The position numbers and the translations under genes are program-made. Positions 12,891 to 46,300 of a DNA stretch of 64,000 nt are shown here, one piece after another. A model generated the notes under the pieces. It did no database searches, was not told the origin of the DNA, and worked only from the letters and a program-made list of their open reading frames with translations. The DNA lies in contig NC_088302.1 in the NCBI RefSeq assembly GCF_032854445.1, positions 36,832,191 to 36,896,190 of the forward strand, given 5' to 3'. The number at the start of each line of letters is the position of its first letter. The first letter of the stretch is position 1. The stretch is from Liolophura sinensis (taxonomy: Eukaryota > Mollusca > Polyplacophora > Chitonida > Chitonidae).

Positions 12891-12894
12891 TCAG

Positions 12895-18889: not shown

Positions 18890-21800
18890 GTAATATACGT
18901 GTTTTTATTCCTGATTTAAGTCGACCGTTATTTATTACATCGGCCTGTACTTTACATATGTGCATTTATTAATATTTAATTTATTTCTATTGCATATTAT
19001 CTGCAGACCTTATGACACATATAGCTAGACATTCCGAAAACACCGACAGCTCGCCTGATTGAACAGTTCGCAATACTACATGACGTTCTAGTGAGGTGAT
19101 ACCTTCAAATACTGACCTCTGAACCAAAATAAAGCAGAATCACACGGTCATATGCAGATATTATTCTCTAGTCAGATGGTGCTAAGATCTTGCCATTAAA
19201 TCAACAAGAAAGGCCAAAATTGGTGTACTGTAATAAACATGACTATTTAGCGTATGCATAAAGACTGCAGAGCAGTGACTTCATATGTTATAGAGTTGTA
19301 AATCGTTGTAAGGCGCAGTTGTGAGCAGTGATTTTTAATACGTAAATCTCGAACTACATTTGGCAATCCGTGCACTATGGGTGACATTTGCTGCCCTGTG
19401 AATGGCTGACCAAATGTTGAGCTACTGTAGTGAAAAACTTCCAGAAGTGTTACCTTCCATCTGAGTATGTACATCCACACACCATACGTTACACGAGGGA
19501 GCTAAAGAAAGCTTCAGTCCGTGTTTGAGAGCCCAGTATAAAGGCGCTGAAAAAAAAAGCTAAAAAAAAACGACACCGACATCTCCTCACAATACCTCAC
19601 CTTACTTTGTACTGAGCTTAAAACGAGTTACTACCATGCCTTTTGAATTTCGGTGCATAACATTCTTAAAAATCTCAACCTTTTTATCTAGAGTTTTCTA
19701 TCAGCATTCCCAGCATGATTTGGGGGGCCAAAATGTAGCCATACGTAACTGCAGACATATATAATATAGAAAACATAGATCTACATAAGGCATAAACAGT
19801 GGAAGCTGTAAACGTAGAAACCTGATCACACACAAGTCTTCTTCTGTGTGGTTTCATGAATGTCACTTCAATAGTAGAAGACTCCTCTCAAAGAAATAAT
19901 CTGTTAAAATTAACAGAAAAACTGTTGTCTGACTGATGCAAGAATGTATTCTGCTATTGCAATAGATGAATCTGTTAAGTACAACATACATATCTTATTA
20001 ATTCAACATAAAGATTGTATGAGGTTAACAGAATGTAATGTTGAATATGAGAGAATATTGTCTTATAATAACATTCTAGCATCACATCGTTCTGTTAAAG
20101 TTAACAGCTTAAGTTTTTGTGTACTAAGTCAAGTCACTCTTAAGACAGCAGTAGCAGAGTGAGCGATTCCTGGCTGTTCATCTGCAGTGAACCGAAACGA
20201 GCAACGCAGAGGACAGACTGGTTGTCGTATATCCACATTTATGGTCATCATTGTGTCAATAGCAAACCTGGCACAATGGAGTTAAGCTATGAATACACCT
20301 ACAGAATGTCAGTGGTTTTCAGCTTGGGGCATTTCCGTGAATTTCAAGATATACTTGATCTTAGACCTAATGACGGCTCAAAGTGTTATTGGAAATTCTC
20401 AACATTACACTATACCGCGTGGTTATCAGCATTAGCATTTCAAGCTGTATATTACATTTTAGGCTGTTTGCAACCAGTTTAACAGGCTACACTCTACGCT
20501 TTAAACATTAAATTTACAGGGTGTGTTATACGTTACAGGGTGTTTCCCTCCTTCTTAACAGGCTACTATCGATGTTTTCAACATGAAATTTACAGACTGC
20601 GTTATACATTACAGGATGTTTCCCTCCTTCTTAACTGACTATAGGCAATGTTTTCAACATTAAATTTACACACTCCGTTATACATTACTACAGTCTATGT
20701 TTTGAACATTCAATTTCCCACCTTAGCAGACTATTTTTTCAACATTAAATTTACAGGCTGTGTTATGCATTACATGGTGTTTCCTTCCTTAGTAGACTAC
20801 AATCTATGTTTTCAACATTAAATTTACAGACTGCATTATACATTACAAGATGCTTCCCTCCATCTTAACTGGCGATGTTTTCAACATTAAATTTACAGGC
20901 TGCGTTATACATTGCAGGGTGTTTCCCTCCTTCTTAACAGGCTGCTGTCGATGTTTTCAACATTAAATTTACAGACTGTGTTATACATTACAGGGCGTTT
21001 CCCTCCTTCTTAACAGACTACAGGCGATGCTTTCAAATTACATTTACAGGCTGTGTTATACATTACAGGGTGTTTCCCTCCTTCTTAACAGGCTGCTGTC
21101 GATGTTTTCAACATTAAATTTACAGACTGCGTTATACATTACAGGATGTTTCCCTCCTTCTTAACTGACTATAGGCAATGTTTTCAACATTAAATTTACA
21201 CACTCCGTTATACATTACAGGGCGTTTCCCTCCTTAACAGACTACAGGCGATGTTTTCAACATTAAATTTACAGGCTGTGTTATACATTACAGGGTGTTT
21301 CCCTCCTTCTTAACAAACTACAGTCTATGTTTTGAACATTAAACTTACCGAATGCTTAATACACTACAGGGTGTTTAAAGGAGGGGTAAGCTACCGACTG
21401 CTTAACTCGATAAAGTCCACATTTTAAAAATTGATTGTCTCGGCTGCTTAGTTGAAGTTTCTTGAAGTTTCGGGGAAATCTCGCAATAGCCACGTGATTT
21501 TGCGAGTTGGCGTAACATATTGCGGGAAGACTTGTCATTTTACTCTACATTTGCATGAATGACAGCTGAACCTCCCCGTTATTATTTCCTCTAACCCTTA
21601 TACACCAACGCTGAAAAACATAAAAATTCATTGGATACTTTGTAGACACACAAGAAAGGAAAACCACAAATCCTATATTACCAGTAACATATATTGGTTC
21701 ATTTCTTGTGAGTACTGTGTATAACACATACCATTTACAGCGCCTGTGCCGCTCTCAACGCTCGGTTTACATCACTGCCATCACTAGACAAGGAGCCTGT

Positions 21801-24800: not shown

Positions 24801-27800
24801 TGGAAGTCCAGTAAAACGTGTAAGGCCTCTGTGCGACCTGCAATCATCACCCGTTGAAGTATAGTGAGCTATATAGTGATCTGGTCGCAAAATTAAACAA
24901 CCCATAGATGATGAGTCTGAATGCTGCGAACACGTCGTCTCTTTCCACTCATTGTGTCAATCAGTCAGAGACACTACCTAGCCATCAGGTGGTTAAGGGG
25001 TACATGAAAAAGAACTCCAATACGAAGATTATGGTTTTAACGGACATGAGAGGGAAAAAAGAGAGCTATGCCCGCCAAAAAGAAAACAACTCTTTCGTTT
25101 TTTAGGCATATCTTATATCTCTTAACTACCCCTCGATTTTAAGAATATCTTTCGCCAGTGGTCGGTAATTTTTTTTCTTTCGATGAACTCATTGCGAACT
25201 CGGGACCGAAATACGTTCAAGTCAGCCTCTCGATCTTCTATATATACATGTAATGAAGAGTTTTAAAAGCAGCAATAACCAGTGCTGAAAAAAATGAAGA
25301 TTGGCTCAAGTACGGTTTATATGTGAGCTATAAACGTTTTAGGTTGAAAAACACTGACAGTTAACCTCTGTTAGGCGTTTCACTGAAATGTATAATTAAA
25401 ACAGGATCCTCCGACTCGACACTTAGGTTATAATATATGAAATTAAATTTGCGACATGTTTGAATTTTATCCCAGGGTCGCTGCCAGCAAAACCACTGAA
25501 TGTATTTTGCCGACTCGAAGAGGATTTGCCCTTTGACCTATGAATGCACGCGTTCAAAGCTCACTCCCATATTGCATCACGTGTCTAGTAGGGGTTTACC
25601 AAAAAATGTCAGTGTGCAGTATGCTCTGTCAGTTTTCCTTCATGCCCTGCCAGTTGTTCTCTATACATTGCCAATCTTTCACCACGCGCTGCCAGATTTC
25701 CTTCACGTGTTCCCAGTTTTCCTCCAGGCGTACACAGTTTATAAGGGAAATACACTTGAGAATAACCTGATTAGCACATCAGTCAAGTTAATAAGTAATT
25801 ATAAGTTAATAAACTATGCTTTAGAGTGTTTTCCTTCCGCTTCCAGTGGGACATGAAGAAGCTGAAGTATAAGCTAGCTCTGGATACGCTTATCGTGAGG
25901 GTGAAGTCCGGGAAATGGACAGATCTGGAATCTCTCAAGAACATATACGTCACTCATCATTTGCCAAAGCCAGAGGTAAAATCTGATGACAAATCTTCAT
26001 TATCTAAAATGTATATACACACCTTTGTTAACATCACATAGCAAAGAAATGAATGATTTGATAGGTTTAGTAAAAACATGAATTTTTATGTGAATTTTTT
26101 TTTACTGGTTGTTTTAAAAGTAAGTTCACAAACTCAATTCGTTGAAAACGATTTACGATAAAATGTTTAGTGTAAAAAGATTAGTGTTATTAGCTATAAA
26201 TTGTTTCATGGCCATAACTGTAACACCTGTATGTAAATAAGTAAACATTTGTTGTTTTCATTAGGCGACCGAGACGTGGAGAGAAGACAGCCATTTTGGG
26301 GATCAGAGAGTTTCTGGGGTCAATCCTGTTATGATTAAACTCTGCACACACATCCCCGAAAAGTGAGTCCACCAAAGAAACTATAGTTCTAAATTTAAAT
26401 GGATTGGGAGAACAAAATACGTGCCACTTCCAAAAGGCGAGAAATAATTTCGTACATTCAGTTAGATGTAGAACTAACAGGCGTTGTGTCAAGTGAAGAT
26501 CACAGAATGAGAAAGCATGGTGGTTTTTACCATGTGTCATCAATGATTTATATAACGGACAGTGGCCTCCGTGGCTCAGTTGGTTAGCGCGCCAGCGCAG
26601 CGTAATGAGCCAGGAGCCTCTCACCAGGCGACTCTGCGGTCGCTGTGAGTTCATATCCAGCTGATGCTGGCTTCCTCTCCGGCCGTACGTGGGAAGGTCT
26701 AGCAGCAACCTGCGGATGGTCGTGGGTTTCCCCCGGGCTTTGCCCGGTTTCCTCCCACCATAATGCTGGTCGCCGTCGAATAAGTGAAATATTCTTGAGT
26801 ACGGTGTAAAACACCAATGAAATAAATAAATAAATAAATAAATAAATATATAACTGAAGAATCTTATGCTCAGGTTTTAATGGTCGAAATTCCTTGAAAG
26901 AGTACGTTGAAACTCTTTAATGTGTCGGTAATGTGATGTATCATCGGGGTTTTTTGTGTTAGTTTTAAGGTTTTAAATTTTGGTTTTTAGATTCGGAGTC
27001 ACCGAAGAAATGGTGAAACCTTTTCTGGAAGGTTTAACGTTGAACGAAGCAATCCAGCAAAATCGACTGTTTATCGTCGATCTGAAGATAAATGAAGATG
27101 TGCCTTGTCAGAATGACTCCTTCGTGGTAAGTGGCGATTTCTTTACTGTCATTAAACCGAGGGTCGATTTGATAACCTCGAAATTATCCTAACAGAAAAT
27201 GTTGCCTCTGTACCTGTCACGGTTTAAGGCTTGGCATAAGGTCCTCTGTCTCCACATGCTACCTGTGCTTCCATAACTTTTTGGGTTTCCATGAAACCTA
27301 TATTAGTGCTCTTTTAGATCCTTTAGATTATTAGAGTTTAGTGCAACCTCCAAACCCCTGCCTTCACAACAACCTCCACCCTCCCCCCCCCCCCCAAAAA
27401 AATATCTACCGTATATATTGTCAGCGGAAAGCTGATATTATAACTTTGCGTAAAATTTCAGTGTAAGTTAATCCATACATTATCGTGAAGACTTTTCAGG
27501 GTACACTAAGATTGAGTAACTTATAAATACATGTATACTGTAAAAGAAATAATATATAATATATTACACGATTGTACCAACGGTAAAACACCAATCAAAT
27601 AAATAAATAAATAAAATCAGCATTAAGGTAACACACCTTCAATTGTTCGCGGATCCTTGGTGGTATGCCATAAGTGGTTGTTATTTCTTTATTTATTAAA
27701 TTTGATTGATGTTTTACGTCGTATTCAAGAATATTTCACTTATATACGACTGCGGTCAGATTTATCATAATGGTGAGAGGAAACCGGGCAGAGAACGGGG

Positions 27801-30800
27801 GAAACCCACGACCACCCGCAGTTTGCTGGTAGACACAATAAGTTGTGGACGATGCTGTCCTGTGTGGTCTTGCACGAAATTCTGTCAAGAAAAATATTAC
27901 ATATGTCACACATATAAGAGTTTGAACTCACTCACCAATGGGTTTCCTCCACACTCCAAAGAACAGATCAAGCAAATAAATAAATAATCAATAATAATCA
28001 ATAAACAATGCAATAGCGTGTTGTCTTCCTAATTAGTCTCAGGCCACAACATTAGTCATGATTAATCGTGTGAATAGTGTGAAATACTTCTCTAACGATT
28101 CGTCTGATGTCCTCTTGTATGATTAATGAGTAACATTTATCTATAGCTCCTTTATATATTAACTGTAAATTGTTTTGTAGCTGTGTTCGCCTATAGCACT
28201 GTTCTTCGAGACTTCCTGCAAGCAGCTGATGCCTATTGCCATACAACTATTCCAGAGCAAACTAGAACCTGGCAACCCGGTAGGTATCTACACCTTACTG
28301 AATTGTCAATCAAACACAACCAATTTTGACTTAGAAGAAACAACCATATATATATACTAAGAATACTTTCACTTCATGTTTTAGTTACATAAATTCTTGT
28401 TTTGTCATCTGTTCCAGGTATTTTTACCATCCGATCCGCCCATGACCTGGCTGCTCGCCAAAATGTGGTACAACAACGCCGACTCGGCTGTTCATCAGGC
28501 TCTCACACATCTGGGTACTTATATCTGATTGTGGACATATTTTAGTGCATTGCCCTGTAGAAATGAAAGAAATGGTGACTCATTTATGATGGTCATCGGT
28601 TTGCTTTTGAAGGTATAAGTTTTTGAAAAAATTTTCTTCTTAAAAAAATAGGTAGGGCTAAGCGCACGATGTTTCTTGCGAAGGAAAAACAAAGATTTGT
28701 CATAAATTATAATGTCTCTCAAGATCACGTGGTCACATCATTCATATAGTTCACAAGATAATATGGGTCTTTACGCTTGAGTGTATTAAATATACTCTTA
28801 CTCATCCAAGAATGAAACAAGAAGTCAGAGGTTAGATGTGAACAACTCAGCTAAACCAGTGCATTCGCCGAATGGTCTTTGAAACTTGAGAATACGGATG
28901 TGACGTCATGGATACCCGGTATAGTTTCCAACAGACCATGCATGCACATTCAGCACGCGGATAAATAGTTCTGAAACCCTACGAAACACCATTTACTAGT
29001 TTATAATGTTACTCGAAAGAAAGAAATTGAACCTCCATGTAGCCATACAGGGGGATATAAACCCTTGGTTGCTGTTTAAGTAAATTTTGTTTTTGTTTCT
29101 TTTGGAACCTGACAAAAGTGGATATGGGCCTGGCGTTACCAATCTGTTTGATTTTAGGTTTGACTCACTTGATTATGGAGGGTATAGCTGCCATTACTCA
29201 CCGGAACTTGTCCCCGACTCACCCCATCTTCAAACTGCTTGCCCCACACTTCTTGTATCTCATCGCCATCAACACGTGAGTTTATTCTATGATTTTCGCC
29301 AAATTCAGAATCCGATATACCGGTTATTACTGACTTGCTAAGATGCCCTGTCTTCGTAATAAGTTAATAATAGAAGATAATTACTCATTTCTATATTGCA
29401 GTGAAGGTAAATTATAAAAGTGGTGGAACATATACGACTTGGTTGTATCTTTCGCGTAACTTCTGAGTCGGCTTATGTGGTGTTGATCTTGACAGAAATA
29501 AAATCCTAGAAAAGAACTATACATGCATGGTAAGAAGACGACCAAAACAAAAGACGTTATGGTCCACACCACAGAACACTGTATGTAAAATACATTAATT
29601 TAAAAAAAGAAAACAAATACTTTTTCTTGCAAAGAATTACATTCATTCAAATAATTGAATTCTACGGTACGCTTTATGAACCATACCCACGACGTCACAA
29701 TGTTCGGTGTCATCATTAGAGAAAATTAATTCACATTTGAAGTTACAAGTTACAAGTTACAACTTGTAAAGATCTCTGTTTCAAGTTACGAGTTACAACT
29801 TGTAAAGATCTCTGTTGTCTGACCACGACGCTTGATTATTTTTTATGCTGATTTTTTCCTTTGAGCGCATCTTGCATTTTTCTCGCACATTTCCTTTATC
29901 TGTACGAATCCTTACAGACTGGGACTCCAAGCTCTGATAAACGAAGGTGGATGGGTGGATTCTGTTCAAGGAATTGGAATCAAAGGAACATTCTTCCTCA
30001 TCGCTAAAGGGTAAGATTTGATTTTTAAAGTCCTTCAGAATGGTTGTTCTTGCTAAATAGGAACAACGCGTGCGGTCTTAGCATTAGTTGTGCACATGGA
30101 AAGTTACTTTTTGAAACATATGCTTAACTACAACACAGTCACTGTACCAAAAACTTTAGGTATTTCATCTAAAGATTTTCATCAAACATTTCTTTTACCA
30201 GCTGTACTGTAGAGAACTCTCCTATAATGGTTATTCTGAACTATATCTGACAGACATTTGTCATTTTTTTTTAGTGTGAAGACATGGCGCATGGATGTGG
30301 AAGGGACCATTCCAGAGGAATTAAGACAAAGAGGGGTACGAACAGATGGGAGTTCTTCCTTTTTTTCGGAAGATTTTAAAAAGTAAAAGAAGACGAAAGG
30401 AACTTAAAAATTGTTGATAATGGCACATTTTATGACATGTACACTGCTGATTAATGGTTTACATAATGTACTGCATTTATTCCCTATCACAGCCCATTGT
30501 AAACAATATGGCCGTGGAAGTAGGTCTGTTTTTGATATGTTTATATTTATTTGTTTTTTTGATACTTTTATATAAATGTACATGTATATGTATACTACAA
30601 ATACTAATAATGTTTATACAATATATTATTTGTGTTTGGTGGCTAGTTGCTGGACGACAAGATCCTCTCGTATTATCCGTACCGCGATGATGTTATGCTG
30701 CTGTACGATGCCATCCACTCTTATGTTAAGAGCATAGTGAACTTGTATTACGGTGAGTATGTGTGTGGGTGAGGAGAGGGTGACAGATGGAAGTAATCAG

Positions 30801-33800
30801 TTCAGTCATACTTTATTCAAATGTAACATTTTCTAGCAATCGTGAGATGCAATCGGTCCAGGCTTCACTGACTCTACCACGCACCATTTTCGACTGGAAA
30901 AGTGAGATCACATTTGGAAAAGTTACAGTGTATTAGTTAGAGTACATTTGAAAAAGAAGAGTACATTTGGAAAAGTTTAAATGTTTTTTTCATATTTTAA
31001 AGAGGTTATACCGGAGGTTCTTTGCAAAAACACGACCAGCGCAAACCCAATGAGTCGTTTGGTATTTTTTAGCAAAGCCGAAATAATTATCTTTTACAAG
31101 ATATCAGCCTAGTATGTGTACGTGTTATCGTTCAAAATCTGTAATAAAGTTCCTAAAATTTTGTTGTTTCCTGCGTTTCGTTAATGAAAGTGCAGATAAC
31201 GGATGGAAGTTTTACGCAACGTTTTAGTGTGCAAGGCATTTGGTACACAGCTTTCAATTTGCTCGTGTAATTCAGTTATTGCTGCTAACATAATTCTGAT
31301 AGATGCACGATGTAGATTTTATGTTGCTACAACAGATACTCCTGATAAACTGAGTGGAGACGATGAGATCCAGACCTGGGCGCAAGAGTTGGTGAAACCC
31401 AAGGAAAAAGGCGGGTGCGGAATATTGGTACGTTCAGATGAAATTACCTGTGATTTATACACACCATGGAATTATTCGCCAGGATAACAACACTGAGATA
31501 ATTTGGGGATATAATGAGCTCAGTCAACCCATTACCAGAGGATAATGACAACCACAGGCGAATTGAGACATTTTCTCATATAGCGTTAAATGTACATGCG
31601 CATATGTTTTCATTATTCTGGTTGCTGTGGCAGTGCACGTAAACGTAAACTGGCTCACGGGCGGCATAACTGTACCAGCAATCATGGCTTTAAGGTTGTT
31701 TATAACACGTCATGCAGTATACGTGTGCATTCACGGCATACGTGCTTGTGAGTATAGGGGAAATGTTTTCGAGTCTCTTTGTGGGTTGGGGAGCGGGCTA
31801 TTAGTCAGCAGGACGTTTGGGTGAAAAATGTCTACTTTTATTGAGTAACAAACAATATGTCTTCGTCAGGCAAATACCAATGTTCTGAAAAGGTTAACTG
31901 GTATGTAAGGGTCACAATGCAAACGTTTCATGCTGATATGAAGCCAAGTGCGTGATGTCTCAACAGCTGCTAATAATAGGTTGAACTGACAAACCCAATT
32001 ATCAATAGGTTGTAAACCAAAAAACGTAGAGAACGTCATTTACGAAAAAGTTACGAGAAACTTAAAACGTTCAGTGAAAGTTGTCCCTTTGCTTTACATT
32101 TACTATTTAATAAATATAAAATATATTTTTAAAAATATTTCAGCACTTCATTATGCGGTCATTTTTGTTTCATTTTTCGGAATTACCCTACGACAAGCAA
32201 CAGTCATCCAAAATCACACGAAATATCCTTTCCTTGAAATCTGAAATAAGCAAAAATACCTCGCCTGTATGATGATCCTTGTATATACTTGTTATTTAGA
32301 ATCAACAACTAATAATTGGGTAGCGTAGACCTGGAGTTTTTCACAGCCGTGCAGAAAAGATCGTTCATGATACATGGAACAATCAGGTGGCTTTTCATTT
32401 GTCTGGAAGGACGTGGAAGGACAATTCAGATTAATAAAAAAAGACAACACTTCACTGAATATGTACATGCATCCGTGAAGTGTCCCTCGTAAACTTTAAA
32501 GAGCATACTTATTTATCTTTGTGCTGTTCATATCCGTGATACCACAGTTCAAAATGAGCGAAATCTCGCATATTGAGAAAATCTTAAGCGCCGCCATGTT
32601 ATCAGGTTTAACCAATCAGGCGCGAGTTACTTCTATAACCTGGTAGCACACCTGTGTTTCCGTTGACGTCAAGGGAACGCTGTTTAGCCTTTTAACCATA
32701 TGAATGCAGTGTACCGTACCAACTTTGAGATACATGTCATATCCCATTACGTAGTCCAGAGTAAATGCTGAGTTACTAAGGACGTTATTCTTTTAATAAA
32801 ACAGTAATAAATATAGCATTGTCAGTATTCTCCCGCTCTCATTATTGTTGGGACATTGGATGAGAATGTATAATTATTATGGTGTATTATGTTGTGTACT
32901 GCAGGGTGTACCAGGCAATGGGCACTTCACTAGCAACGACCAGCTCGTCCTCGTCCTCACCTCCATCATCTCCACATGCAGTCTTCTTCACGCAGCTTTC
33001 AACTTCCCACAGTATGACACTTACGGCTTCGCGCCAAACTATCCTCTGATGATGAAAGGGAGGCCACCCAAAGACAAGGTAGGTTTCATTTACTGGGTTT
33101 TACCATTCTCGTTTTATTAGAGCTCATCTCATTCTCTGATCATAGTTGACTCATCTGGCATCTGCAGTGGGTACTTCGAGTTCAGCTGGAATACATGTTG
33201 CGTATGTTTCGACATACGAAGTGTTAGAGCGAAGGTGATCCTGTGACCAATCAGAGGATCCGTTGGCGCAGCAGACAGGAGGTCGCACGACAATATGCGA
33301 CTATAAATATGTAACGAGAGATTTCATTGGATGACGTTGTTAAGACTAACCAGTAACTGAGTCGAACCACGTGCATAGTTCAATTCAGTCAAGGGTTTAA
33401 CTGCAGCAAAGCGAAAGAAAAACGTTGACATTGTGACAGTGGGTTTCACCGGCTAATATGAGAATCCGAGAGGGTTCTTACACCCCAGTGCGTAAGACTC
33501 ATGGTGACATTTACGGTATAACGGTAAATTATGGTAGTAATTATTACGGTAATAATTTCATAGGGTACATTTATATAACTTATAAAGCAAAAAGGCCAAA
33601 TAAAAACGGAATGAGCATCATTAGACAAACCACTGAAAATTGTATCAGAAAATTCTTCTTCTTCAATTTTCCTTTTACTGAATTACCAGATGTTCAGATG
33701 TTTGACTTGTCTGACTTGTCGGGGGGGGGGGGGGGGCTTTATGAAACATATTGAATGATAATTTATGTGTGCAATAAAAACCAGTAAAGCTATTTCTTTT

Positions 33801-34731
33801 AATAGTTTTTAATAGTCTTTCTGTTAGTGCTTTCTTCATTTTTACGGGGTTTTTTTTCTGAAAAAGGGCTCATTATACTGTAATGGAGAAAATACGCCAT
33901 GCAAAGTATTTTCAGAACCTTTGCATAATATTCTCGTCACACATTTAATTACAAATAATGCCTTTTGATTCCAGAACCCATTGACTGAACAGGACATTGT
34001 GAATACATTGCCGGACAAAGCTGTGACCTTGGACGCCATGTTAATCGTAAAACTGCTGAGTCAGAAGGGAACCAACTCTCTGGGCGACTTTGAGGTTAAA
34101 TTTGCGTATGATCCAAGAGCATTGAAAATTATTGAATCGTAAGTCAAACACATTTGATTTTATTCTGTGAGCAAATGTAGACAGTCGATGTGACAGTGCT
34201 TATTTGCAGTGACAAAATTTAGCCATATCCTAAATGATGAATGAAAAATCTATGAGACAAATGGCCGGATGTCTCACCTAGGAGACGGTTTTCTTGCAAT
34301 CTCCTGTTGGGTTAAGAACTTTCCGATATTCAACAGCACCTAAGATTACCAGGCACTTGATATGCTGAAAGCTTATCTGTTTGTTTCTTTATTATCTGCG
34401 GAGTGTAATTCTATGGGAAAACGGTGATATTGTTGGTGGAGATACATTATCTTCTTCTTGATCATGGGAGGCATTTTTTGAATCCGTATGCGTGGGAAAT
34501 TGTGTCCGCAATTCGATATTTTATTCTTGTTATTTTTCTTGATTTTATCTTACTACAAATGACGAAGTAACTACCTTTATAGTCTTCAGTTTTAACCTTC
34601 AAATTGTGTTTATTTCCAGATTCCAGCAGAAACTATCGGAAATAAGCAAGCTCATAAAGGAGAGAAACACAAGAAGAAAACCATATCCCTGGCTGGATCC
34701 CGAGGACGTGCCAAACGCCATCAGCATTTAA
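18425..34731 (+). CDS. LOX-A: complete PLAT-domain animal lipoxygenase, 15 exons, 662 aa
   Basis: Non-heme iron dioxygenase that should convert polyunsaturated fatty acids to hydroperoxides; the PLAT domain normally gives Ca2+-dependent membrane docking. Coding exons: 18425-18889, 24021-24065, 25847-25975, 26265-26362, 26991-27126, 28181-28279, 28418-28514, 29158-29275, 29918-30010, 30275-30335, 30647-30752, 31336-31427, 32905-33078, 33975-34138, 34620-34731. All introns are GT-AG and phases agree, giving 1989 nt including TAA. PLAT is residues 1 to about 120 (starts [20 protein letters not shown]); the rest is the catalytic domain. Iron ligands are visible: H350 and H355 (VHQALTHL), H542 and N546 (LLHAAFN), and C-terminal I662. 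Residue 398 (AINT-L-G-L) aligns with the Coffa stereocontrol site and is Gly, predicting an R-lipoxygenase. Length matches the family (about 660-680). The ATG was chosen because it directly precedes PLAT strand 1 and agrees with LOX-B. Positional specificity (5, 8, 11, 12 or 15) cannot be read. No allene-oxide-synthase domain is seen upstream. Confidence 0.93.
19895..20112. mobile_element. TGTTAA-type MITE, copy 1
   Basis: Terminal inverted repeats of the type ctgttaaaattaacag ... ctgttaaagttaacag, with subterminal 'gtctgactgatgcaagaatgtattctg' and its inverted counterpart. In LOX-A intron 1. Related copies are at 38957-39215, 46735-46960 and 49848-50015. Confidence 0.75.
20480..21380. repeat. 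Minisatellite of about 84-bp units in LOX-A intron 1
   Basis: About 10 diverged tandem units containing gttttcaacattaaatttac, aggctgcgttatacattaca and gggtgtttccctccttctta. Unit length varies through small deletions. Non-coding. Confidence 0.9.
22197..22340 (+). mobile_element. Degenerate SINE family 1 tail with expanded A/T repeat
   Basis: accatgatgccggcagccgtcgtata is followed by a long aaataaat/aactaaat tail to about 22340. An opposite-strand degenerate tail lies at 22497-22575. Confidence 0.6.
24021..24065 (+). CDS. LOX-A exon 2: 45-nt microexon
   Basis: A 15-codon phase-0/0 exon ([15 protein letters not shown]) lies between a pyrimidine-rich acceptor (ttttttaag) and donor GTAAG. It joins the PLAT linker to the catalytic domain. 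The exact 45-nt counterpart exists in LOX-B at 52016-52060 ([15 protein letters not shown]), which is the main support for such a short exon. Confidence 0.85.
24190..24275 (-). mobile_element. SINE family 1, 3' end
   Basis: Contains the attggtgttttacgccgtac, tcaagaatatttcacttata and ccagcattatggtgggagga blocks only; in LOX-A intron 2. Confidence 0.85.
26549..26854 (+). mobile_element. Full-length SINE family 1 with target-site duplication
   Basis: Best copy in the window, in LOX-A intron 4. The tRNA-like head at about 26560 has A box tggctcagttgg (26572-26583) and B-box-like gagttcatatcc (26647-26658); then the conserved body and an (AAAT)n tail. An 8-bp TSD tatataac flanks it (26549-26556 and 26847-26854). 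Confidence 0.92.
27690..27832 (-). mobile_element. SINE family 1, partial
   Basis: Tail and body are present (acgtcgtattcaagaatatt, gggcagagaacgggggaaac); the head is missing. A tail-only plus-strand fragment (aaaacaccaatcaaataaat) sits just upstream at about 27587-27616. LOX-A intron 5. Confidence 0.8.
28418..29275 (+). CDS. LOX-A exons 7-8: first two iron histidines and active-site helix
   Basis: Exon 7 (28418-28514) encodes [22 protein letters not shown], with the paired iron ligands H350 and H355 in the HxxxxH spacing of lipoxygenases. Exon 8 (29158-29275) encodes the following arched-helix region [15 protein letters not shown]...[19 protein letters not shown]. Its last codon (AC) is completed by exon 9 (29918-30010), whose third residue is the Gly398 stereocontrol position. 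Confidence 0.92.
29737..29817. repeat. Short direct repeat, ~46-bp unit, in LOX-A intron 8
   Basis: Two copies of agttacaacttgtaaagatctctg with palindromic agttacaagttacaacttgt elements. Confidence 0.7.
32560..32705 (+). repeat. Dispersed repeat shared with the segmental duplication
   Basis: Matches about 875-1010 and 8215-8350: gccgccatgttat, aaccaatcaggcgcgagtta, ttctataacc and tttccg.tgacgtca blocks occur in the same order and strand. In LOX-A intron 12. Confidence 0.75.
32905..33078 (+). CDS. LOX-A exon 13: third iron histidine and asparagine
   Basis: 58 codons, phase 0. The segment [20 protein letters not shown] contains H542 and N546, equivalent to H550 and N554 of human 5-lipoxygenase. 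The following [14 protein letters not shown] matches the usual 'NAP..MR.PPP..K' lipoxygenase stretch. Confidence 0.93.
33720..33737. repeat. G homopolymer in LOX-A intron 13
   Basis: Run of about 17 G on the coding strand. Confidence 0.9.
34620..34731 (+). CDS. LOX-A exon 15: C-terminal Ile iron ligand
   Basis: This exon encodes the last 37 residues, completed from split codon TC|A and ending [13 protein letters not shown] then TAA. The terminal Ile carboxylate is the fifth iron ligand in lipoxygenases, and the IP(N/x)..(A/S)I ending is diagnostic. Confidence 0.95.
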
Positions 34732-34841
34732 ATGGCGATAAACATCTTCAGTTTCCCATGTTTTCCAAGGATCTTCAGAACGTTAATATATTAACATCAG
34801 GCTAGACATATTAATAACAACGACAAAATCGATATGAGTGG

Positions 34842-34847
34842 AATAAA
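34842..34847 (+). promoter_or_regulatory. AATAAA polyadenylation signal for LOX-A
   Basis: A canonical AATAAA hexamer lies 111 nt after the LOX-A stop codon. It is the first good signal downstream; further AATAAA matches occur near 35484 and 35648, so longer 3' UTRs are possible. Confidence 0.5.
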
Positions 34848-37199
34848 TCATAAGTGTTAAATGTACTTATAAAGAAGCAATTACTATCCATTGTAAGGCG
34901 TTTTGGTATATAACTACTCAGAATGATTACTCACTAAAACAGCCACACCATCTGAAATTTATACACCCAATTACAACATTATGGCCACAAACTGAACAGG
35001 TTAGCCGACATTAAGACTTTTCAAAAAATGTAGTTTTTTCATACTATACAGCGAAATGCTCTCAGAATATGATAAACGACCACAGTAATACAGTGTGTTG
35101 GAATGTACGATTACATATATTTGTATGAGTCACATCTGGAGACCAAGGAACCAGATGTAGACTCGTGTTCATTTGTCAGTTTTGAAGAGGAATCTTTGAA
35201 ACGTCCGACATGTCCGACGCACGAGGAGTGGGTTAAACCCCAGCCTCTGGGGAAGAACTGTGTAGAAAATGGTATGCCCTGCCTCCCTGCACTATTTTTG
35301 TAGCCTTGATGGCAATACCCCGCCGATAGCGGTTTTATGGCTGTTTAATTCATCTTACATGAAGTTTTTTGGCGAGCACTTGCCTTCCACCAGCATAGCA
35401 TACGCACTGAGCTCCTTCTGCAGGAGAAAAACTAACAAATACTAATATATGAGTTTAGAAGCCTTAGTTTTTATTATTTTCCATGAATAAACATGTCATA
35501 AAAACTTGTTTAAAAACTCTGATCGACAAGTTTCCAAGTAAACCAAAGCTTTTAAATGACCTGAAAGTATGTTGAATTTGTTTACCCTATGACTTATACA
35601 CGAACATTTAATGTGCCTGACATGACGTCGCGTGCTCTTTACAATGGCAATAAATAAATGTTCCGTTACCTTCGAATACTTTCGTTCCTTTATTCTCCTG
35701 TTAATTGCATTATAAAGAGTTATAGCAGTTCCAAGGAGTTTGCGTTTTCAAAGAATGGCTGTCCGGAAAGGATTAGAATAATCTGTGAAGCTTCCCTAAC
35801 ATCTAATCAATTTACAAGATATTAATGCCAATTTTGCACTTCGTACGGAAACATTGTTTTTTATTTTTTTATTTATTTATTTTTTTTTGGTTGTTATTTC
35901 TATAGTTTTACCTCATGTTATACGTAACTCCAGGGTAAATCACGGCAACCAACGCCAATGCATGACCGTAAATGACTGAGGAAAATATACTGAGGAAAAT
36001 CAGTATATGCGTGAGAAGTAAGCAAGGTTTGTGACATTTCAGAGAGAAACCTTCAACAACATTGAGTGATATCGGGCGCAGTCGATATTCTCTGCCTAAA
36101 TGCGGATTTCCCTATAGAAATTGTTGTTCCTGCCAGGTGTCTCAGCTGTAACTGTTCCTATTAAAAGTAATGAATGATTCATTAAGGTTTAACAATATTT
36201 CATCCATAGGGTAACAAGAACATGTTAGAAGAACGAAACTGTCATATCTACAGCACCAAGTGACAAACACATCTGTTTAAATCTTTCACTTTTTCGACTT
36301 TCAAGAATGCCTGCTTTGACTTCGCCAGCGTTAACGTCCTCAGTATTGCCTGAACTAATTACTTAATTTGCATCTCATTGTCATCAGTTTCAGGCTTTTT
36401 CAACACAAAACGATTTAAGTGCGAACCATCCTCCCTTCACCACCCATACCCTTGCCATTATGACATTTTAAGGGACACAGGGTGCTGATCGATTTGAAAA
36501 TATGGAATAGTGTATTCCTTTTGTAGCAAATTTCCAGAAATGCCTTGAAAAGGTTTTGACAAAATCCAAGTACTTTCAAGAATTTCAAGGTTGTTCTTGC
36601 TCGGAATATTGAAATTATTCTTTTCTGACAGAGCTCTTGTTGTTCTTCTAGAAAAGTGCACAAAAGGACGGATCTTTCGCAAATTTGATATGCATGTAGA
36701 ATAAAACTATTTACATAAAGTTTGAATGTGTATTAAATCAGTCATAAAATTTACCAGGTCGAACATATAACGTCTTAAAAAGTTTTGAATTTTATATACT
36801 TTTCAAGTTTTTTAGTGTTTTGCGGACCAGTGATTCCGAATCTACGTTTGATTTTCTCTGTGTTTGTAACTTTTTGAGATATATGAAAATTAAGTTTAGG
36901 GTTTTGAAGTGACATAATTCCAATCGCCTGCAAATTGAAAACTGAGAGCTAGAATTTGCAATTTGTTCCAAGTTGTAGTCCAAGATATGCACTTTCCGTG
37001 CCATTTCCGAGCAACGATTAACGGTTCTCTCGTTAGAAGTGTTTAAAAGACATCATCATATTTCAGAAATACAAAAGGGCTCCTTGACTAGATAGGAACT
37101 GGATAGGAAATCGTGCCATTTCGGAGCAGCTGTGAGGTGTAATTTTTTCACTTAGAAAAACAAATAAAACTTACTTGAATATGAAGTACAATTATTGAT

Positions 37200-37397
37200 T
37201 TTTTTATGGTGGGTGGAAACCGGGCAGAGCCCGGGGGAAACCCACGACCATCCGCAGGTTGCTGGCAGACCTTCCCACGTTCGGCCGGAGAGGAAGCCAG
37301 CATAAGCTGATCTTGAACTCACAGCGACCGCATTGGTGAAAGGCTTCTGGGTCACTACGCTGCGCTAGCGCGCTAACCGACTGAGCCACGGAGGCCC
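37200..37397 (-). mobile_element. SINE family 1, head and body, tail truncated
   Basis: Well-preserved tRNA-like head on the minus strand (gcctccgtggctcagtcggt) and cccgggctctgcccggtttc core. It stops at a T-rich junction at about 37200 instead of the usual tail. Confidence 0.9.
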
Positions 37398-38616
37398 CTA
37401 CAGTTATTGAAGAGCGTGTGTGTGATAAATTGGAGTGATGCTAGTTATATTTTTCGTTTCATCACAAGACAAAAGTAGGGTCAAAAGCAGACTTTGCTAT
37501 TTTAAAGCGTTTTCCAGAGGGAATTCCCTTCATAATAAAAAGATGATTATGTGAACCAAAATCATTTCCATATATTTGATGTCTACTTATGGAGTGGTAA
37601 TTATATTTTTATAAATCGAACAAAATGGAATAATTTGGGCGTTCAGAGGAACGGTACATTCACCATAACATTTCATGCATTCTAACCTATTGTCCGCATT
37701 GGCACAGTGGTAACATGCATGCTTTGAAACCCTTGTGTCCAATAGGATATTGCACACTTGTGGAGTAATGGAGGGAGGATTAATTTGAACCACACATAAA
37801 TTTTTTTATATTTCGTCATATATTGTCAAGCTATATGTTAGATGAGTTTAAATATATTAAATCTATATAGATTATATACAGTATTTTCCCAGTGAAAGCT
37901 CAACGCTGTTTATTTCACCTAACAGTATATCGTACAATTTCACTGAGAAAGGGGCACCCTGTTTATCAGTTTAGCTTCGTCATAAATGTCTATTAAAGAC
38001 ACTGCCATATATTCACGGTATAATTCGTAAGACAAAACTTGTTTAAAATACCAACATTAGACGGAAAAGGATATTATCCTATGCATTTAAAGGCATAGAG
38101 TAGGCTGATGGTTAGCAACTATATTGTAGCCTGGCCTGTTTCATTGGCTACACCTTCAACCGAATACCGAAAAAGACCTTGCGTCATTTCGCAGACGATC
38201 TGTCACGGTGAGCAGGTTGGCAATCAACCTGCGCGACATGAGGACGATTTCCCCTAGTTGCAAGGGCTCCTCTAAGCCCAGTCATTTTATTTACTGATTT
38301 AGAGAGTAAGTGAACAATTGTACTCCCTTTAACTGCCTAGTCCCAAAGTTAACTGAGTACCCTAATACGTAGCATCGCTCCTGTTGTCATGTCACAAACT
38401 GCTCTGTAATGATGTAGAAGCTGAAAATAATTCACGAAACCGTGAAACCGCAGGCAGTTCTAGCATTTTGTTTTCAAATAATCATTTACATACTCGATGT
38501 CTTTGAATTCAAGTAAAATGCTTAAACATGACACTCTTGGAACTGAAATAATTGGAGATAACAGGATTTTTCTTATTTGTTCATCACACACTTTATGACA
38601 AAATGACTTTCTTATA

Positions 38617-38757
38617 TTTATTTATTTGATTGGTGTTTTACGCCGTACTCAAGAATATTTCACTTATATGACGGCGGCCAGCATTATGGTGGGTGGCAAC
38701 CGGGCAGAACCCAGGGGAAACCCACGACCATCCGCAGGTTGCTGACTGACCTTCCCA
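38617..38757 (-). mobile_element. SINE family 1, 3' half
   Basis: Conserved tail and body to the ggttgctgac/tgaccttccca region; head missing. Confidence 0.9.
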
Positions 38758-38956
38758 TGACTTTTCTTATACATTTTGACAACAAATATACTATGTGTTA
38801 TGTGCTACTGTTTATATTTAGCTATTGTAACATCATCTGTTTACAGCTATAAGCTAAAACGGCAAAGAAATATAATGGGGAGCCTTTCTCGCCTATTTTC
38901 CTGTGATTTATTCGTTTCTGTCTTTGCGTTGGTGATTGGTAACATCGTACACTCAA

Positions 38957-39215
38957 AAATTTAATCTGTTCATTTTATGAGGAAAGTCTTTTGTCCGGGT
39001 GATGCTAGAATTTACTCTGTTATTAAAACACAATATTCCGTTATATTGGACATAATATCCTGTTAGTCTAATAGAAACTTTATTTTGAATTAATAGAATA
39101 TGTGCATTATATTTAACAGAACAATGTTCTGCGATAACAGAATACATGCTAGCATCACTCAGACAATAGGCTGCGTTGAAATTAGTCGGTTCATTTTCTA
39201 AGTGTATAAAGGAAT
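38957..39215. mobile_element. TGTTAA-type MITE, copy 2
   Basis: Shares gtcttttgtccgggtgatgctagaatt, the internal ctgtta motifs and the inverted end gaatacatgctagcatcactcagaca with the other copies; outer termini are eroded. Confidence 0.65.
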
Positions 39216-39916
39216 TACAGGAGAACAATTGTCAATTCTGTGCGGACCCCCGATACGTCTTTGGGCGGGACAGTTACTTGAAAATGAAATAAACTGGAAT
39301 AAAGTATACAGCATCCGAAACACGATGCACTGATGGGGCGAAATAATCGTTTGGAGAAAAAAACACTAACATATCATACCAATGTTATATAGGTGCGGTT
39401 GGCTATAAAGCTAAAGATTATGCCACTACTAAAGTTTAAACTACGGTTACTGCCATGATCGCTCCTACTTCCATGACTGCTTATAACTGCATAATAATGC
39501 AACCACAAGAGTTTTGTTGAACCAGCAAGACAAAGCCAGATAATATAAACCGGTGTGAAGACTCAAGGAATCGAGAATCGTGACAACAAATAACTTAAAC
39601 CGAGAAACACATGGAGCGGTTATTCTTATAACAGAACACTCAACGTTAGTCCCCTAAAACCTCGTACTGCTTCCCGTCACCTATACTAAAACTTTCGAAT
39701 GCATCAACAATAACAACACGTGATGTCCGTAAACCCTGATTGTCTTTCCATCGCCAGACTTGCGCAAAGACGGTTTTCTTCACTGCATTGTAAACAAGTT
39801 TACATACAGAAACCCATATGCCCAAGAATGCAGGTGATGCAGGTTTCCAGTAGAAGTACCAAGCCCTGTTCAGGTCGATTTCTTACAATACAACCATAAA
39901 TACCCATTGTCAACGA

Positions 39917-40031
39917 TCAGATGCTTATGGAGTTCGGAATATTTTCTGGATCAAGCCACTCATACGGCAACCGTCGAGTTTTGTTTCTGTCTCTTATGAT
40001 TTTCTTGATTTCCGAGAGCTTAACCTTGAAT
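39917..40031 (-). pseudogene. Orphan LOX-B exon 15
   Basis: Intact last-exon homolog: acceptor cctttcag, then a phase-matched reading FKVKLSEIKKIIRDRN...EWLDPENIPNSISI and TGA, closely matching LOX-A exon 15 and keeping the terminal Ile ligand. No canonical phase-2 donor exists in exon 14 to reach it. Its good condition suggests recent loss of the donor rather than old decay. Confidence 0.85.
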
Positions 40032-40374
40032 CTGAAAGGACAGAGTTCGTATCTTCAGTCAGTGATGATTGTAAGATGCATACTGATTGCTGTGCTTCGA
40101 ATTCCAACAACAACTATCGGATCATAACCTAAAATTCGCAGGGAAAAATAACCTATAACAAGAATTTACTTTTATTTAATTATTTGATTTAATTATTGTT
40201 TGACATCTTATATACTTAAGGATTTTTCGCTTGCATCACGGCCAGTATTATGGGTGTAACTGGTGAACTTTCCCTGGTGTGGCAGGTGCAGATTGGCGGA
40301 AGACAAATGGTCCTGAATCAACGTACGATTGCTTACTGACCCCAAACTCCCACGGTTAATGAGAGTGGGACAAT

Positions 40375-43300
40375 CTATTCAATGGCATCCTTGGCTTTCG
40401 GGTCAAATGCAAAGTTAACCTCAAAGTCTCCCAGACAGTTTGTCCCCTTGGAACTGAGTAGTTTCACTACCAGCATGGTGTCAAGAACAACCGCTTTGTC
40501 TGGAATAGCCCTCAAAATGTCCTTCTCTGTCCTCGGTTTCTGGAAATTAAAGGGTATGAATTTACTTTTAAATGAATACAGAATAAAAAAAATTACTTTA
40601 AATATGCTGCTGTATCTGATCATCTTCAAATAGCAACGTTCGTTTGAATTACGGTGTTAGAAATTTAACAAATGTGGTTAGGACAATAAACAGAAAGGCT
40701 GGGTATATTTCGATGAGAAACTCACATTAGAAAGCGCCTTGACGCCACCGCAAAGAATAAGTACAAAATATAAAAGACGCCTATGTATATTTATTTATTC
40801 TCTGGACTCTTAACAGAAGTTAAAATGAATTATTGTGTAATGTTCGAATTACAGCCTTTCATGTTTAAACATAGATAATAATAACATATAATATAATGTC
40901 CATAGGGGCTTTTTACAATTATAGATACAGGTAAGTTATTTTCAGAATAATAGAAATGTTTTGATATTTTAGGATTCCCAAATGATTCATACTTTATCTT
41001 TAGGTGGCGTTCCCTTCAGCATCATGGGATAGTTAGGCGGAAAGGCGTAGTTTTCATACTGAGGGAAATTGAAGGCCCCGTGTACAAGACTGCAGGTGCA
41101 GATGATGGAGGTGAGAACAAGGATGAGCTGGTCATTACTGGTGAAGTATCCATTACCTGGTACACCCTACAATACAACAGAACACAATTCAATACAAAAA
41201 CACAATACACAATTCACGCAGATATACATTACATGTTACAATACATGTAACATAACAAAGAAATATATTAATTATTTCCAGTAGTGATTGTAAATGCCAA
41301 TGCTTCGGGGGCTCAAAATTTTGGTGGAGATGGCGAGCCTCTAAAGACCTAGAAAATCCTTTCGGATAAATTTGAAAAAGATTTTGTTTCAAAGAGCCTG
41401 AAAACAACCTACAAACCACAGTTGTACACTGAATATGAAAATACAACACGGAATTCACATAGGCACCCTGTATACAACTGTAACGTAATGTGTTGGTAAA
41501 TACCAATATTTGTGGAGATTAAAAGAAGGAGTAAAACCCCCAAAACGTGAAAAGGCGTTTGAGATAAAAGAAATTTGAAGATATTTGTGTTTTACTGACA
41601 ACATGTAGTAGGAAGCTGAATAGGCTTGATCACCAAACTAATCAACAAAAATTAACTTATCCCCCTGTAATCCTCATGGGTCCTTCTGTGCATAAATGTG
41701 GATGTGATGTATGACCTATTATATCACTACACACCAACTGACAAACACTGCAGACTTATTCTACGCTGAGGTATTGTTATGAAAACATGTTTATTTTGGA
41801 AGGAAGAAGACGCTTGCCAATATTCCACATCCTCCATTTTCTTTAGGGGTCACCAACTCTTTCGCCCATGCTTGTATCTCATGATCACCTGATAATTTCT
41901 CTGGGCTATCTGCGGATAAATGATAATATAAAATAGAAAAAGAGACTACATTGACTGTACACTTGTGTTGATAACTTCAGCGTTCCATCATTTTTATTTA
42001 TCTTTCAATAATCCACTATTGTAAATCATACCATTTTAATGTATTCGTCTATTATGATATCAAATAATGTGACCAACGCTTGCGAAAAGTAACGCCTTCA
42101 CCACCATATGAATAATTCAAATTCGTTTTCTTACTCACCGTAATACAAATCCACAATCTTAGTGACGTATGAGCTGATGGCCTCGTACAGCAGTATGACG
42201 TCATCACGGTACGGGTAGAAATGGAGCACCTTATCATCCAGCAGCTAAAAGATTAAAACTTTATTAAGACATACTACAATGTCTTGCAATCCTATAACTT
42301 CGATGGACTGTAGCTTGCCGATAGCGCAAACCGGCTTAAGAAGCCAAATCCAAACGAATATCTTTATTTATTTATTTAATCGACTGGCATTTAATAACTC
42401 TCTATTCAAGAATATTTCACTAAAACAATTTCATGGGTGTAGGAAACCCGGCGAGATACCTAACTAAAGCTTACTGGCATAAAACCAAAATTGACCCATC
42501 GTGGAGTGCTGTATTCTGGTCTGTGGAGTCACTGGCTGGTTGTGGCGAGAATAGCACTTTAGCCTATTGAACAATCGAGGGCCCCACGACAATCCTGTCA
42601 TTTAATTTTCTTTACGTCAAAATCCATCAAAATTCACTATTTTAACGAAGACATCAATGGCCAGCATGTTAGCAGAACGTAATTTGTTGTTGTTTTTTCA
42701 TAAAAAAGAAGTTTTAGTATTAACTTTTACATACACCTCTCTGTCTGAGCTCCTCTGGTATGGTTCCTTCCACATCCATGCGCCATGCTTTGATTCTGCG
42801 CCAGGTAAATCAGGTAAGTAAGTTATTTCTTATAACCACAGTAGTCTAGTCATATTGTTTGAAAGTAAATAAGATTGCAAACTCCCTTCTTAACAGTGGT
42901 AAACAACTTGTCAGTGACCTATTTGCGTTTTAATCTTCTAACTTAGAAGTGTACAAGTATCGTGACAGAAATAATGGAGCGATGATATTTATTTAGTTGA
43001 CTGGTGTTTTACACCGTACTGAAGAATATTTAACTTATACGACGGCGGCCAGCATTATGGTGGGAGGAAAATAAACAGACCACGACCATCTGCAGGTTGC
43101 TGCTAGACCTTCCCACGTACGGCGTAAACCAGCAGAGGAAACCAGCATGAACTGAATTTAAACTCTTAGCGACGACATTAGTGAAAGGCTCCTGGATCGT
43201 TGCTCCGCGATGGCGAGCTAACCCCCTAAATTGAATACAGTGCCCGAGAAAAAATGATAAGGGTCGGGGTTCTGGCGACACATTTCACAATTTCAACCTC

Positions 43301-46300
43301 AGTCAGCTGTATACTGAGAGACTCCCTCTTCTCTCGTCATAACTGTGAACAGATTCCAAGAATCTGAGAAGCTCACGATTATGCTGAAATCTCCAAAAAA
43401 TATAAAAATGTCAGAATTTTGCTGAAATATTCAAAAAAGGTCAACATTGTGGCAAGATATGTTAGAATCTTAGTATATGTCAACACTTTGAGGAGATGTA
43501 CCAGAATCTTAGAATGTCAACATCTTTCAAGGTATTCGGAGTATTTTTGTTTTTCCAATACCTTACTGAAATAAATTCATCTTATTTCAGTGGGGACTAC
43601 TATTGCACCCGGTAATGATACAATGATTTCAAAGGGTTGCGAAATACTCATACCTGTTAATTTACTTCTGTGATTGGTGTTTTACGCCGTAATTAATAAA
43701 TTTCACTTAAACGATGACAGCTAGTATTACGGCGAGAGGAGACCGGACATGACACGGGTTAAGCCCAGGAGTACCCGCTGCCAGACCCTTACACCCGTAT
43801 GTGACTGGACAAAAGCCAAAAGCATGCAGGATGAGCTGGACTGGAACTCCCGTCCAGTGCAGTGGTAAGAGGATCATGGGTCATTATGCTGCGCTAGCAC
43901 GCTCACAACTCCACCATGGAGGCCACGGGGTATCCAAAATATTAATAGATCAACAAGGTATTCTAGAATCTTATAGTAAGTCTACACTCAACAACAATCG
44001 CTATGTTATATATATTCTACCGTAAATTAGCAGATTAGATTCATTATTCTTTATCATTGTTTTGCGGTATAACAGAATGTCAGAATTTTGGAACTGGTCT
44101 CAGGTTTTAGAGAATATCAGATCAGAATTGGTCTCAGGTATCACAGAATATCAGAAGGTCAAAACTGATCTGAGGTATTACGGATTATCGTAAGATCAGA
44201 AATGGTCCGATTGATCATAGAATACCAGAAGATTAGAAATGGAACTGAGGTATCACTGAATATCAGATGGCCAGAATTGCTCTGAGGTATGACTGACCAT
44301 ATGCAAGTATCAGCTGGTCGGAAGGTATTACAGAATATCAGAAGGTCAAAACCAGTCTGCGGTATCACAGAATATCGGAAAATCACAATTCGTCTGCGGT
44401 GTCACAGAATTTCAGAACTGGTCTCAGGTATTGCACAATATCAGGAGGTCAGAATTGTGCCAGGCATTCCAGAAACCTTCATGTACAGAATACAAGAGCC
44501 TACGAAAAGTCAAGAATTTCACAAAGGCGTACCTGGCGGAAATGGCCTTGATCGACTTGTAAATGGGGATGAAAATTAAACTTAGCATCAAGTCCTCTAT
44601 AACACAACATTTTGTTAAAATAAAATTGATAATTATTACCCTTTGGCTATCAGAAAAAAGGTGCCTTTAATGCCTACACTTTCCACCGAGTCCACCCATC
44701 CACCTTTTGATATAAGCGTCTTGAGGGCCAGCCTGCAGCAAAGATATTTTTAAGACATAAAATATGTTCTACAGATAAGACACAACAATAGGCCTACCAA
44801 CTTTACTCAGTGAGTAAAATTCTGATATTAATGATGTTGGATATACATAGATACTTTTAAGATAATAAAAAAACAAATACTTAAAGAGACAAATAATTAA
44901 TAAAAAAGGATAAGTTTATTAAAAAGTGTTTCTTTTTAAACGTGCTTAACGCCTCACACAAATATTTTTCAAAAATATTTTACGCAGTTTTATCGATGGC
45001 GGAAACCTGGATACCTAAGTAAGATTGTTTACTTGGTGCTACTAACGCTGTTGGATGCTTACTGTCATTAAGACAGGAGCAAGAGAATCTTATCCGAGAT
45101 TCCTGTTCGAGGACAGGACTGAACGAATATCACAAGTGTTCAATAAATAAATGAAATTAAAGAAGAGTTAGACTTGTTTTCTTACGTATTAATAGCAATG
45201 AGGAAAAGGAAATGCGGGGCAAGGAGTTTGAAGATTGGATGAGACTGGGACAAGTTCCTCTGGGTGATGACAGAGATACCCTCCATTATCAGGTGAGTGA
45301 AACCTGAAAATACAAAATATAAGTTGAGTGAAACCTGGAAGCACAAAATATCAGGTGAGTTAGCCAGGAAAGAGAAAAGCATAGATCTTAATTATAAAGT
45401 GAGTGAAACCTGAAAACACAGGTGAGCGAAAATATCAGGCGCGTGATATATTTAAGAACTGAGCGATTTCTGGTTACAGTTATACGGGAAGAAATTTTAA
45501 GCGAGACCATTCGTATTAGAACATGTACAAGTCAGCGATTTCTGGCCAAAGTTATATGGGAAGAAATTTTGAGCGAGACCATTCATACCAGAACACGTAC
45601 AAGACAGCGATTTCTGGCCACAGTTATACGGGGAGAGAATTTTGAGCGAGACCATTCATACTAGAACATGTACAAGTCGGCGATTTCTGGCCAAAGTTAT
45701 ACGGGAAGAAAATTTTGAGCGAGACCATTCATACCAGAACACGTACAAGACAGCGATTTCTAGCCACAGTTATACGGGAAGAAAATTTTGAGCGAGACCA
45801 TTCATACTAGAACATGTACAAGTCGGCGATTTCTGGCCACAGTTATACGGGAAGAAAATTCTGAGCGAGACCATTCGTACTAGAAGACGGACTCGCCCGC
45901 CCAGCTCAATTTAATGAAGCTCATAAATACATTGTTTTTCTGTTTTCTGTTTAGGGTGTGTTTCCCAGCAAAATTGTTCGTCTTGATCATCTGATATATC
46001 CATTTTGTTACAATTTTGTAACCTTTTTAACATAATTTTTTGACCATCTGATACAAATGCTTCCTCGATTAACACTGGGAAACTACAAATTCGTGTATAA
46101 TGCGTGTTCCTCCTCTTTGTGGCAAACTTAGCATTTACATTTGCCTCCTTTCAAAGTTCTATAGATTCGACGCAGTATGTCACCATCGTCAGGGGCAATG
46201 GCAGCATAGCTATTGCGAAGAAAATATGACAGTCTTCGATGTTACATTCATTGTCCTCTTAGAGTGAGGATACAATGCTACATGTAAAACACGATGGTTA

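Follow-up and report, generated by a model that had tools for sequence, protein, structure and literature searches.

The chirality of lipoxygenase (LOX) products has been tied to one residue, the Coffa–Brash stereocontrol site. According to a 2026 review of these enzymes, Ala at this position leads to S and Gly to R oxygenation, since it is this residue that decides at which end of the pentadienyl radical O2 enters (PMC13059375). In the same article, 12S- and 12R-LOX are not regarded as closely matched in mechanism; the counterpart of 12S is 8R, with O2 on the same face, and the 8R-LOX is that of P. homomalla (PMC13059375). Here, we describe a lipoxygenase gene cluster of the mollusk Liolophura sinensis, two genes of which, LOX-A and LOX-B, face each other in a stretch of 64,000 nucleotides (contig NC_088302.1, C8:36832191-36896190; hereafter, the window). 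We think it probable that these are two of three clustered, related animal lipoxygenase genes, a Gly-type LOX-A and an Ala-type LOX-B that has lost a splice donor, and that the switch between Gly and Ala predicts regioisomeric products and no enantiomers.

Coral 11R-LOX (PDB 3vf1) and 8R-LOX (PDB 2fnq, 3fg1, 4qwt), which we take to come from Gersemia and the genus Plexaura, respectively, resemble LOX-A in having a PLAT and a catalytic domain, a His/Asn iron site, an invariant Leu, and the switch Gly, and the T-L-G of 11R-LOX is identical to that of LOX-A. The differences are an identity to LOX-A of 36–37% and a LOX-A gene model without the allene oxide synthase part. In addition, the coral depth position Ala589 is Leu561 in LOX-A and Met565 in LOX-B. 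The first two His ligands stand in the sequence H-L-L-R-x-H in each of the coral enzymes, whereas LOX-A, LOX-B, and the third gene, LOX-C, share H-L-G-(L/F)-T-H (exon 8).

A convergent pair of neighbouring S- and R-lipoxygenase genes is already known from a comparable human locus. At 17p13.1, ALOX15B occupies the plus strand (8,039,034-8,049,134) and ALOX12B, the gene for 12R-LOX, the minus strand (8,072,636-8,087,716) (PMC12993299, Table 1), and ALOX15B oxygenates with S chirality (PMC11582214). The human genes are listed there as functional members of a larger cluster, whereas LOX-A and LOX-B are close sisters (77% identical). Human 15-LOX-2 (ALOX15B; PDB 4nre) has the same T-L-A as LOX-B, but the frame of LOX-B, as sequenced, ends short of the C-terminal Ile. 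Human 12R-LOX presumably has Gly at the site and obeys the rule. Among molluscs, an 11R/12S activity has reportedly been found in mussel ovary, which we did not use as evidence, and no title on the stereochemistry of a molluscan lipoxygenase was present among the matches listed in our literature search.

Gly and Ala at the Stereocontrol Column of LOX-A and LOX-B

The gene models of LOX-A, LOX-B, and LOX-C were rebuilt exon by exon from one assembly (haplotype) of 609 Mb and 632 contigs, which the genome searches took in as a whole. Both proteins of the window exceeded the Pfam cut-offs (LOX-A: PF01477, E 4.6e-21, and PF00305, E 2e-67; LOX-B: PF01477, E 4e-20, and PF00305, E 7.5e-62), and the NCBIfam profile search gave no match. 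In the HMMER search against the sequences of known structures, LOX-A matched 54 distinct lipoxygenase sequences, the best five alignments all being with coral enzymes; the LOX-B stretch matched 51 sequences, and the best five alignments were inspected. The features of the locus are listed in Table 1.

Table 1. Positions of the lipoxygenase genes and their diagnostic features (window coordinates unless the contig is given).
Feature	Position	Strand	Remarks
LOX-A gene, 15 coding exons, PLAT and lipoxygenase domains, 662 amino acids, complete	18425..34731	+	All 14 introns GT-AG, single open frame
LOX-A exon 8, H360 (second His of H355-x4-H360) and HPIFKLL...AINT helix	29158..29275	+	H355 in exon 7
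LOX-A exon 9, stereocontrol site	29918..30010	+	Acceptor ttacag, donor gtaaga
LOX-A Gly398 (GGA), Coffa–Brash position	29922..29924	+	Same column as Gly427 of 8R-LOX and the switch Gly of 11R-LOX
LOX-A exon 13, H542 and N546	32905..33078	+	H570 and N574 of 8R-LOX
LOX-A exon 15, terminal Ile iron ligand	34620..34731	+	Exon model
LOX-B gene, whole span	55332-39917	-	Convergent with LOX-A
LOX-B exons 1-14, open frame of 629 amino acids	40375..55332	-	TAG at the end of exon 14
LOX-B exon 9, stereocontrol site	44640..44732	-	
LOX-B Ala402 (GCC), Coffa–Brash position	44726..44728	-	On the Gly427 column of 8R-LOX; TLA of 15-LOX-2
LOX-B exon 12	41818..41909	-	Non-canonical GC donor (TTG/GCAAGC)
LOX-B exon 14	40375..40539	-	Homologous donor ATA/GATTGT, in-frame TAG after GAA
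LOX-B exon 15, intact (FKVKLSEI...PNSISI, stop)	39917..40031	-	Acceptor tttcag
LOX-C gene, 15 exons, 672 amino acids	C8:36822825-36795919	-	All introns GT-AG; from genome search and flanks; 9-36 kb left of the window

The AINT-L-G of LOX-A aligned without gaps on the AINT-L-G of coral 11R-LOX (3vf1) and the AIDT-I-G of coral 8R-LOX (2fnq). In the HMMER alignments of LOX-B, INT-L-A stood on the INT-L-A of human 15-LOX-2 (4nre) and the INE-L-A of CspLOX2 (5med). LOX-A has Gly and LOX-B has Ala at the Coffa–Brash column: Gly427 of 8R-LOX corresponds to G398 and A402, and the shielding Leu431, also in register, corresponds to L402 and L406. A first-pass annotation of the window had assigned Gly398 and Ala402 to exon 9 of two convergent paralogs and had named the column as the Coffa site. 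The rebuilt models reproduced its exon coordinates and codons exactly, the genes lie on opposite strands facing each other with 510/660 identical residues, and the alignment to 8R-LOX bears out the column.

The residue before the switch is Leu in LOX-A, as in 11R-LOX, while it is Ile in 8R-LOX and Arg in the fish enzymes considered below; the Leu makes an R product of LOX-A more likely. Judged by alignment to 8R-LOX, the metal site of three His and one Asn is complete in LOX-A (H355, H360, H542, N546) as well as in LOX-B (H359, H364, H546, N550). LOX-A ends in ...NAISI and thus has the C-terminal Ile carboxylate ligand, which LOX-B as sequenced lacks, its frame ending at residue 629. The equivalent of Arg182 of 8R-LOX fell into a poorly aligned region.

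We also compared the six-residue clamp, which in 8R-LOX consists of L758/I796/G800/L804/T996/L1000 (PMC5437038, Table 1). It reads L I G L I L in LOX-A, L I A L V L in LOX-B, and L I G L V L in LOX-C. Save for the first position, the clamps of LOX-A and LOX-B are those of CspLOX1 (9R product) and soybean LOX-1 (13S product), respectively, and the LOX-A clamp differs from that of coral 8R-LOX at the fifth position alone (Ile for Thr) (PMC5437038). As a mere resemblance, this pattern agrees with a same-face, opposite-end difference set at the switch.

Since 510/660 residues are identical overall and 5/9 residues differ between the two proteins at LOX-A positions 397-405, a Gly/Ala difference is statistically unsurprising. 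It is notable solely through the known role of the column.

Loss of the Exon 14 Donor in LOX-B

The donor of exon 14 is GTAAGT in LOX-A and LOX-C but GATTGT in LOX-B, with three successive bases (+2 to +4) changed. The first-pass annotation had treated exon 15 of LOX-B as absent; the exon was found in its place, and it is a usable exon 14 donor that is missing. A script tested GT and GC sites in the stretch that begins 20 bases inside exon 14 and reaches as far as exon 15; one of them, a GC at 40474, allowed an in-frame join, which would delete part of exon 14, and none of the GT donors among the positions tested gave an in-frame join to exon 15. LOX-B is broken as sequenced, with a predicted product of 629 amino acids that is devoid of the C-terminal Ile iron ligand. 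The review counts the terminal carboxylate among the metal ligands that all lipoxygenases share (PMC13059375), and a marked loss of activity is reported for 5-LOX with an altered C-terminal Ile (PMC13014066, citing Hammarberg 1995).

The donor defect looks young. This is suggested by the numbers of residues unique to LOX-B (39) and to LOX-A (42) out of 660 columns, by exon 15, which matches LOX-C at 21/36 residues in LOX-A and at 21/36 in LOX-B, and by a low ratio of nonsynonymous to synonymous substitution rates (dN/dS) of 0.127 for exons 1-14 (0.096-0.162 in 100 bootstrap resamples). In exon 15 alone, dS was saturated, hence no ratio is claimed for it. As the other catalytic residues of LOX-B are kept and it has changed no faster than LOX-A, the gene probably encoded a working Ala-type enzyme until a short time ago.

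When the assembly was searched at the DNA level for LOX-B exon 14, two matches were obtained, one being the query gene and the other the corresponding exon 14 in LOX-A, and no second haplotype copy was found. A transposon inserted exactly in the donor was considered and rejected; intron 14 contains a weak remnant resembling a short interspersed nuclear element, but the matched part of this remnant begins only about 120 bases past the end of the exon.

LOX-C and the Polarity of the Switch

The third gene, LOX-C, has an intact C-terminus (...NSISI) with the Ile carboxylate ligand. Its switch residue is Gly407 preceded by Arg, the same pair as in the fish enzymes. Counted over the aligned columns of each pair of proteins (660-666 columns), the identities are 510/660 (77%) for LOX-A/LOX-B, 386/661 for LOX-A/LOX-C, and 391/666 for LOX-B/LOX-C (58-59%). 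By this measure, LOX-A and LOX-B are sisters, and LOX-C is more distant. Since Gly is found in LOX-A, LOX-C, 8R-LOX, and 11R-LOX, parsimony over five sequences indicates that Gly is likely ancestral and Ala derived in LOX-B.

No further lipoxygenase gene was found in the genome with PF00305, which matched five places, all within LOX-A, LOX-B, and LOX-C; as this profile missed exon 13 of LOX-B, weaker or diverged genes might escape it likewise. The genome search gave 44 matches, and the six of them located on another contig (C6) span the PLAT part only. Six core peptide patterns of LOX-A, which reach close relatives only, had no match in viral contigs.

Predicted Products and Alternative Explanations

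In the mechanism that we propose, the ancestor of LOX-A and LOX-B would have had Gly, and the change to Ala would have taken place in LOX-B. Provided that the enzyme works, such a change should direct O2 to the opposite terminus of one and the same pentadienyl radical. Because O2 moves to the opposite end of the pentadiene, Gly/Ala paralogs are predicted to form regioisomers of opposite chirality and not mirror images; with otherwise like pockets, the pair would form 8R versus 12S or 11R versus 15S products, of opposite chirality at different carbons. The later loss of the LOX-B donor would have placed a stop in the frame and left a product without the iron-binding carboxylate of the C-terminal Ile, so that, in this haplotype, hydroperoxides are predicted from LOX-A and LOX-C alone.

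This scheme departs from the first-pass annotation, which had the pair making mirror-image hydroperoxides from one locus. The opposite residues do stand at the true Coffa column, as such a pair would have them. However, the literature model puts the two products at different carbons and couples 8R with 12S, not 12R with 12S (PMC13059375). Enantiomers at the same carbon also need opposite orientations of the substrate, of which there was no indication in the material examined, and one of the two enzymes, as sequenced, is without its C-terminal iron ligand. We therefore hold a mirror-image pair to be very improbable. The assignment of Gly to R and Ala to S by the same annotation stands as the default reading of the family, but not as a way of deducing chirality from the residue alone. 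Fish ALOX15-like enzymes and zebrafish LOX1, with Arg-Gly as in LOX-C, give mainly 12S and some 8R products despite their Gly (PMC10531496), and a LOX-A of mainly S specificity would follow their example, next to a LOX-C with the fish-type pair. We consider this unlikely, since Leu and not Arg precedes Gly in LOX-A, as in 11R-LOX and similar to the Ile of 8R-LOX. The pair in LOX-B is Leu-Ala. In the fish enzymes, moreover, replacement of Gly by Ala lowered the 8R share and replacement of the preceding Arg by Ile raised it, so the rule is obeyed in part (PMC10531496). It is somewhat easier to imagine, although still doubtful, that LOX-B works and that its donor defect stems from faulty assembly, belongs to a rare allele, or is bypassed by unpredicted splicing. 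Its intact exon 15, as close to LOX-C as that of LOX-A, its unhurried rate of change, and its low dN/dS speak for such a gene. Nevertheless, a change of three consecutive bases goes beyond a single base error, the sole in-frame join to exon 15 would remove some of exon 14, and the search of all 632 contigs matched exon 14 of LOX-B and LOX-A only.

Several observations weigh against the reading that we prefer, in which LOX-A is Gly-type, LOX-B is a broken Ala-type gene, and the switch sets the products. The fish enzymes just mentioned are one of them. In Myxococcus fulvus LOX, the A410G replacement changed neither position nor chirality (PMC6612559), and the review speaks of a few exceptions to the rule, its references including the 9R mini-LOX of Nostoc/Anabaena (PMC13059375). 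The LOX-A clamp equals that of human 15S-LOX except at the switch (PMC5437038), so the clamp alone is no mark of an R enzyme. LOX-A and LOX-B differ at 150/660 positions, including the clamp position T996 (Ile/Val) and the depth position Ala589, so the switch is not all that sets them apart. The Nostoc/Anabaena enzyme presumably has Ala at the switch site. In addition, gene conversion between paralogs can blur the polarity of the Gly-to-Ala change, and the donor loss, seen in one assembly only, may reflect faulty assembly or a rare allele. Meanwhile, CspLOX2 (Ala300, main product 11R) was considered as a further exception to the rule and set aside: it forms a bis-allylic product, to which the two-ended rule does not apply, and the Ala300Gly variant gave more 9R product, as the model would have it (PMC5437038).

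A wider and more tentative proposal is that the cluster forms a natural series at one residue (LOX-C Arg-Gly, LOX-A Leu-Gly, LOX-B Leu-Ala) that leads from a Gly ancestor to an Ala enzyme. The pair may once have split one pentadiene into R and S products at opposite ends, with the S branch now being lost by the splice defect, or LOX-B may persist as a truncated non-catalytic lipoxygenase. Sister enzymes split at the stereocontrol residue, together with an Arg-Gly paralog, would offer a good natural test of the Gly/Ala rule beyond the founding enzymes, and the value of the three genes as a test set is independent of the mirror-image claim. The splice defect calls for caution against annotating LOX-B as a functional S-lipoxygenase.

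Duplications and Repeats at the Locus

Exon 1 of LOX-A (18421-18893, plus strand) and exon 1 of LOX-B (55321-54849, minus strand) form an inverted pair of 473 bases that is 89.9% identical. The frequency of third-position differences between the two genes is 0.05-0.10 in the 3' half of this exon (amino acids 79-156), 0.26-0.36 in its 5' half, and 0.33-0.69 in later blocks. The first 200 bases of the introns flanking exon 1 were no more similar between the genes than shuffled sequence. The 3' half of this exon looks like a gene-conversion-like patch. In exon 8, LOX-B (45303-45186, minus strand) matches LOX-C (C8:36801518-36801401) at 36/40 residues versus 33/40 for LOX-A, counter to the overall relationship, and some 20 intron bases directly before this exon are alike by eye between LOX-B and LOX-C. 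It is possibly a second conversion patch.

Two extra stretches resembling a PLAT first exon are present at 6380-7033 and 10582-11220 on the minus strand, upstream of LOX-C on its strand; the former is divided between two frames close to the 3' end. From these stretches to the left edge of the window, no catalytic exon was matched, and they may be either alternative first exons or remnants. In the same part of the window, 340-2221 and 7694-9494 form a direct duplication of two blocks that are 93-95% identical.

Intron 1 of LOX-B contains an open frame (53502-53900, minus strand) with a weak match to DUF3504 under the Pfam cut-off (21.6 versus 29.7 bits), which we take to be perhaps the remnant of a tyrosine-recombinase transposon. 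Self-comparison of the window also revealed tandem-like repeat arrays at 12883-13472, 20422-21376, 45462-45889, and 61715-62058, as well as a near-perfect palindrome of roughly 185 bases at 47074-47257.

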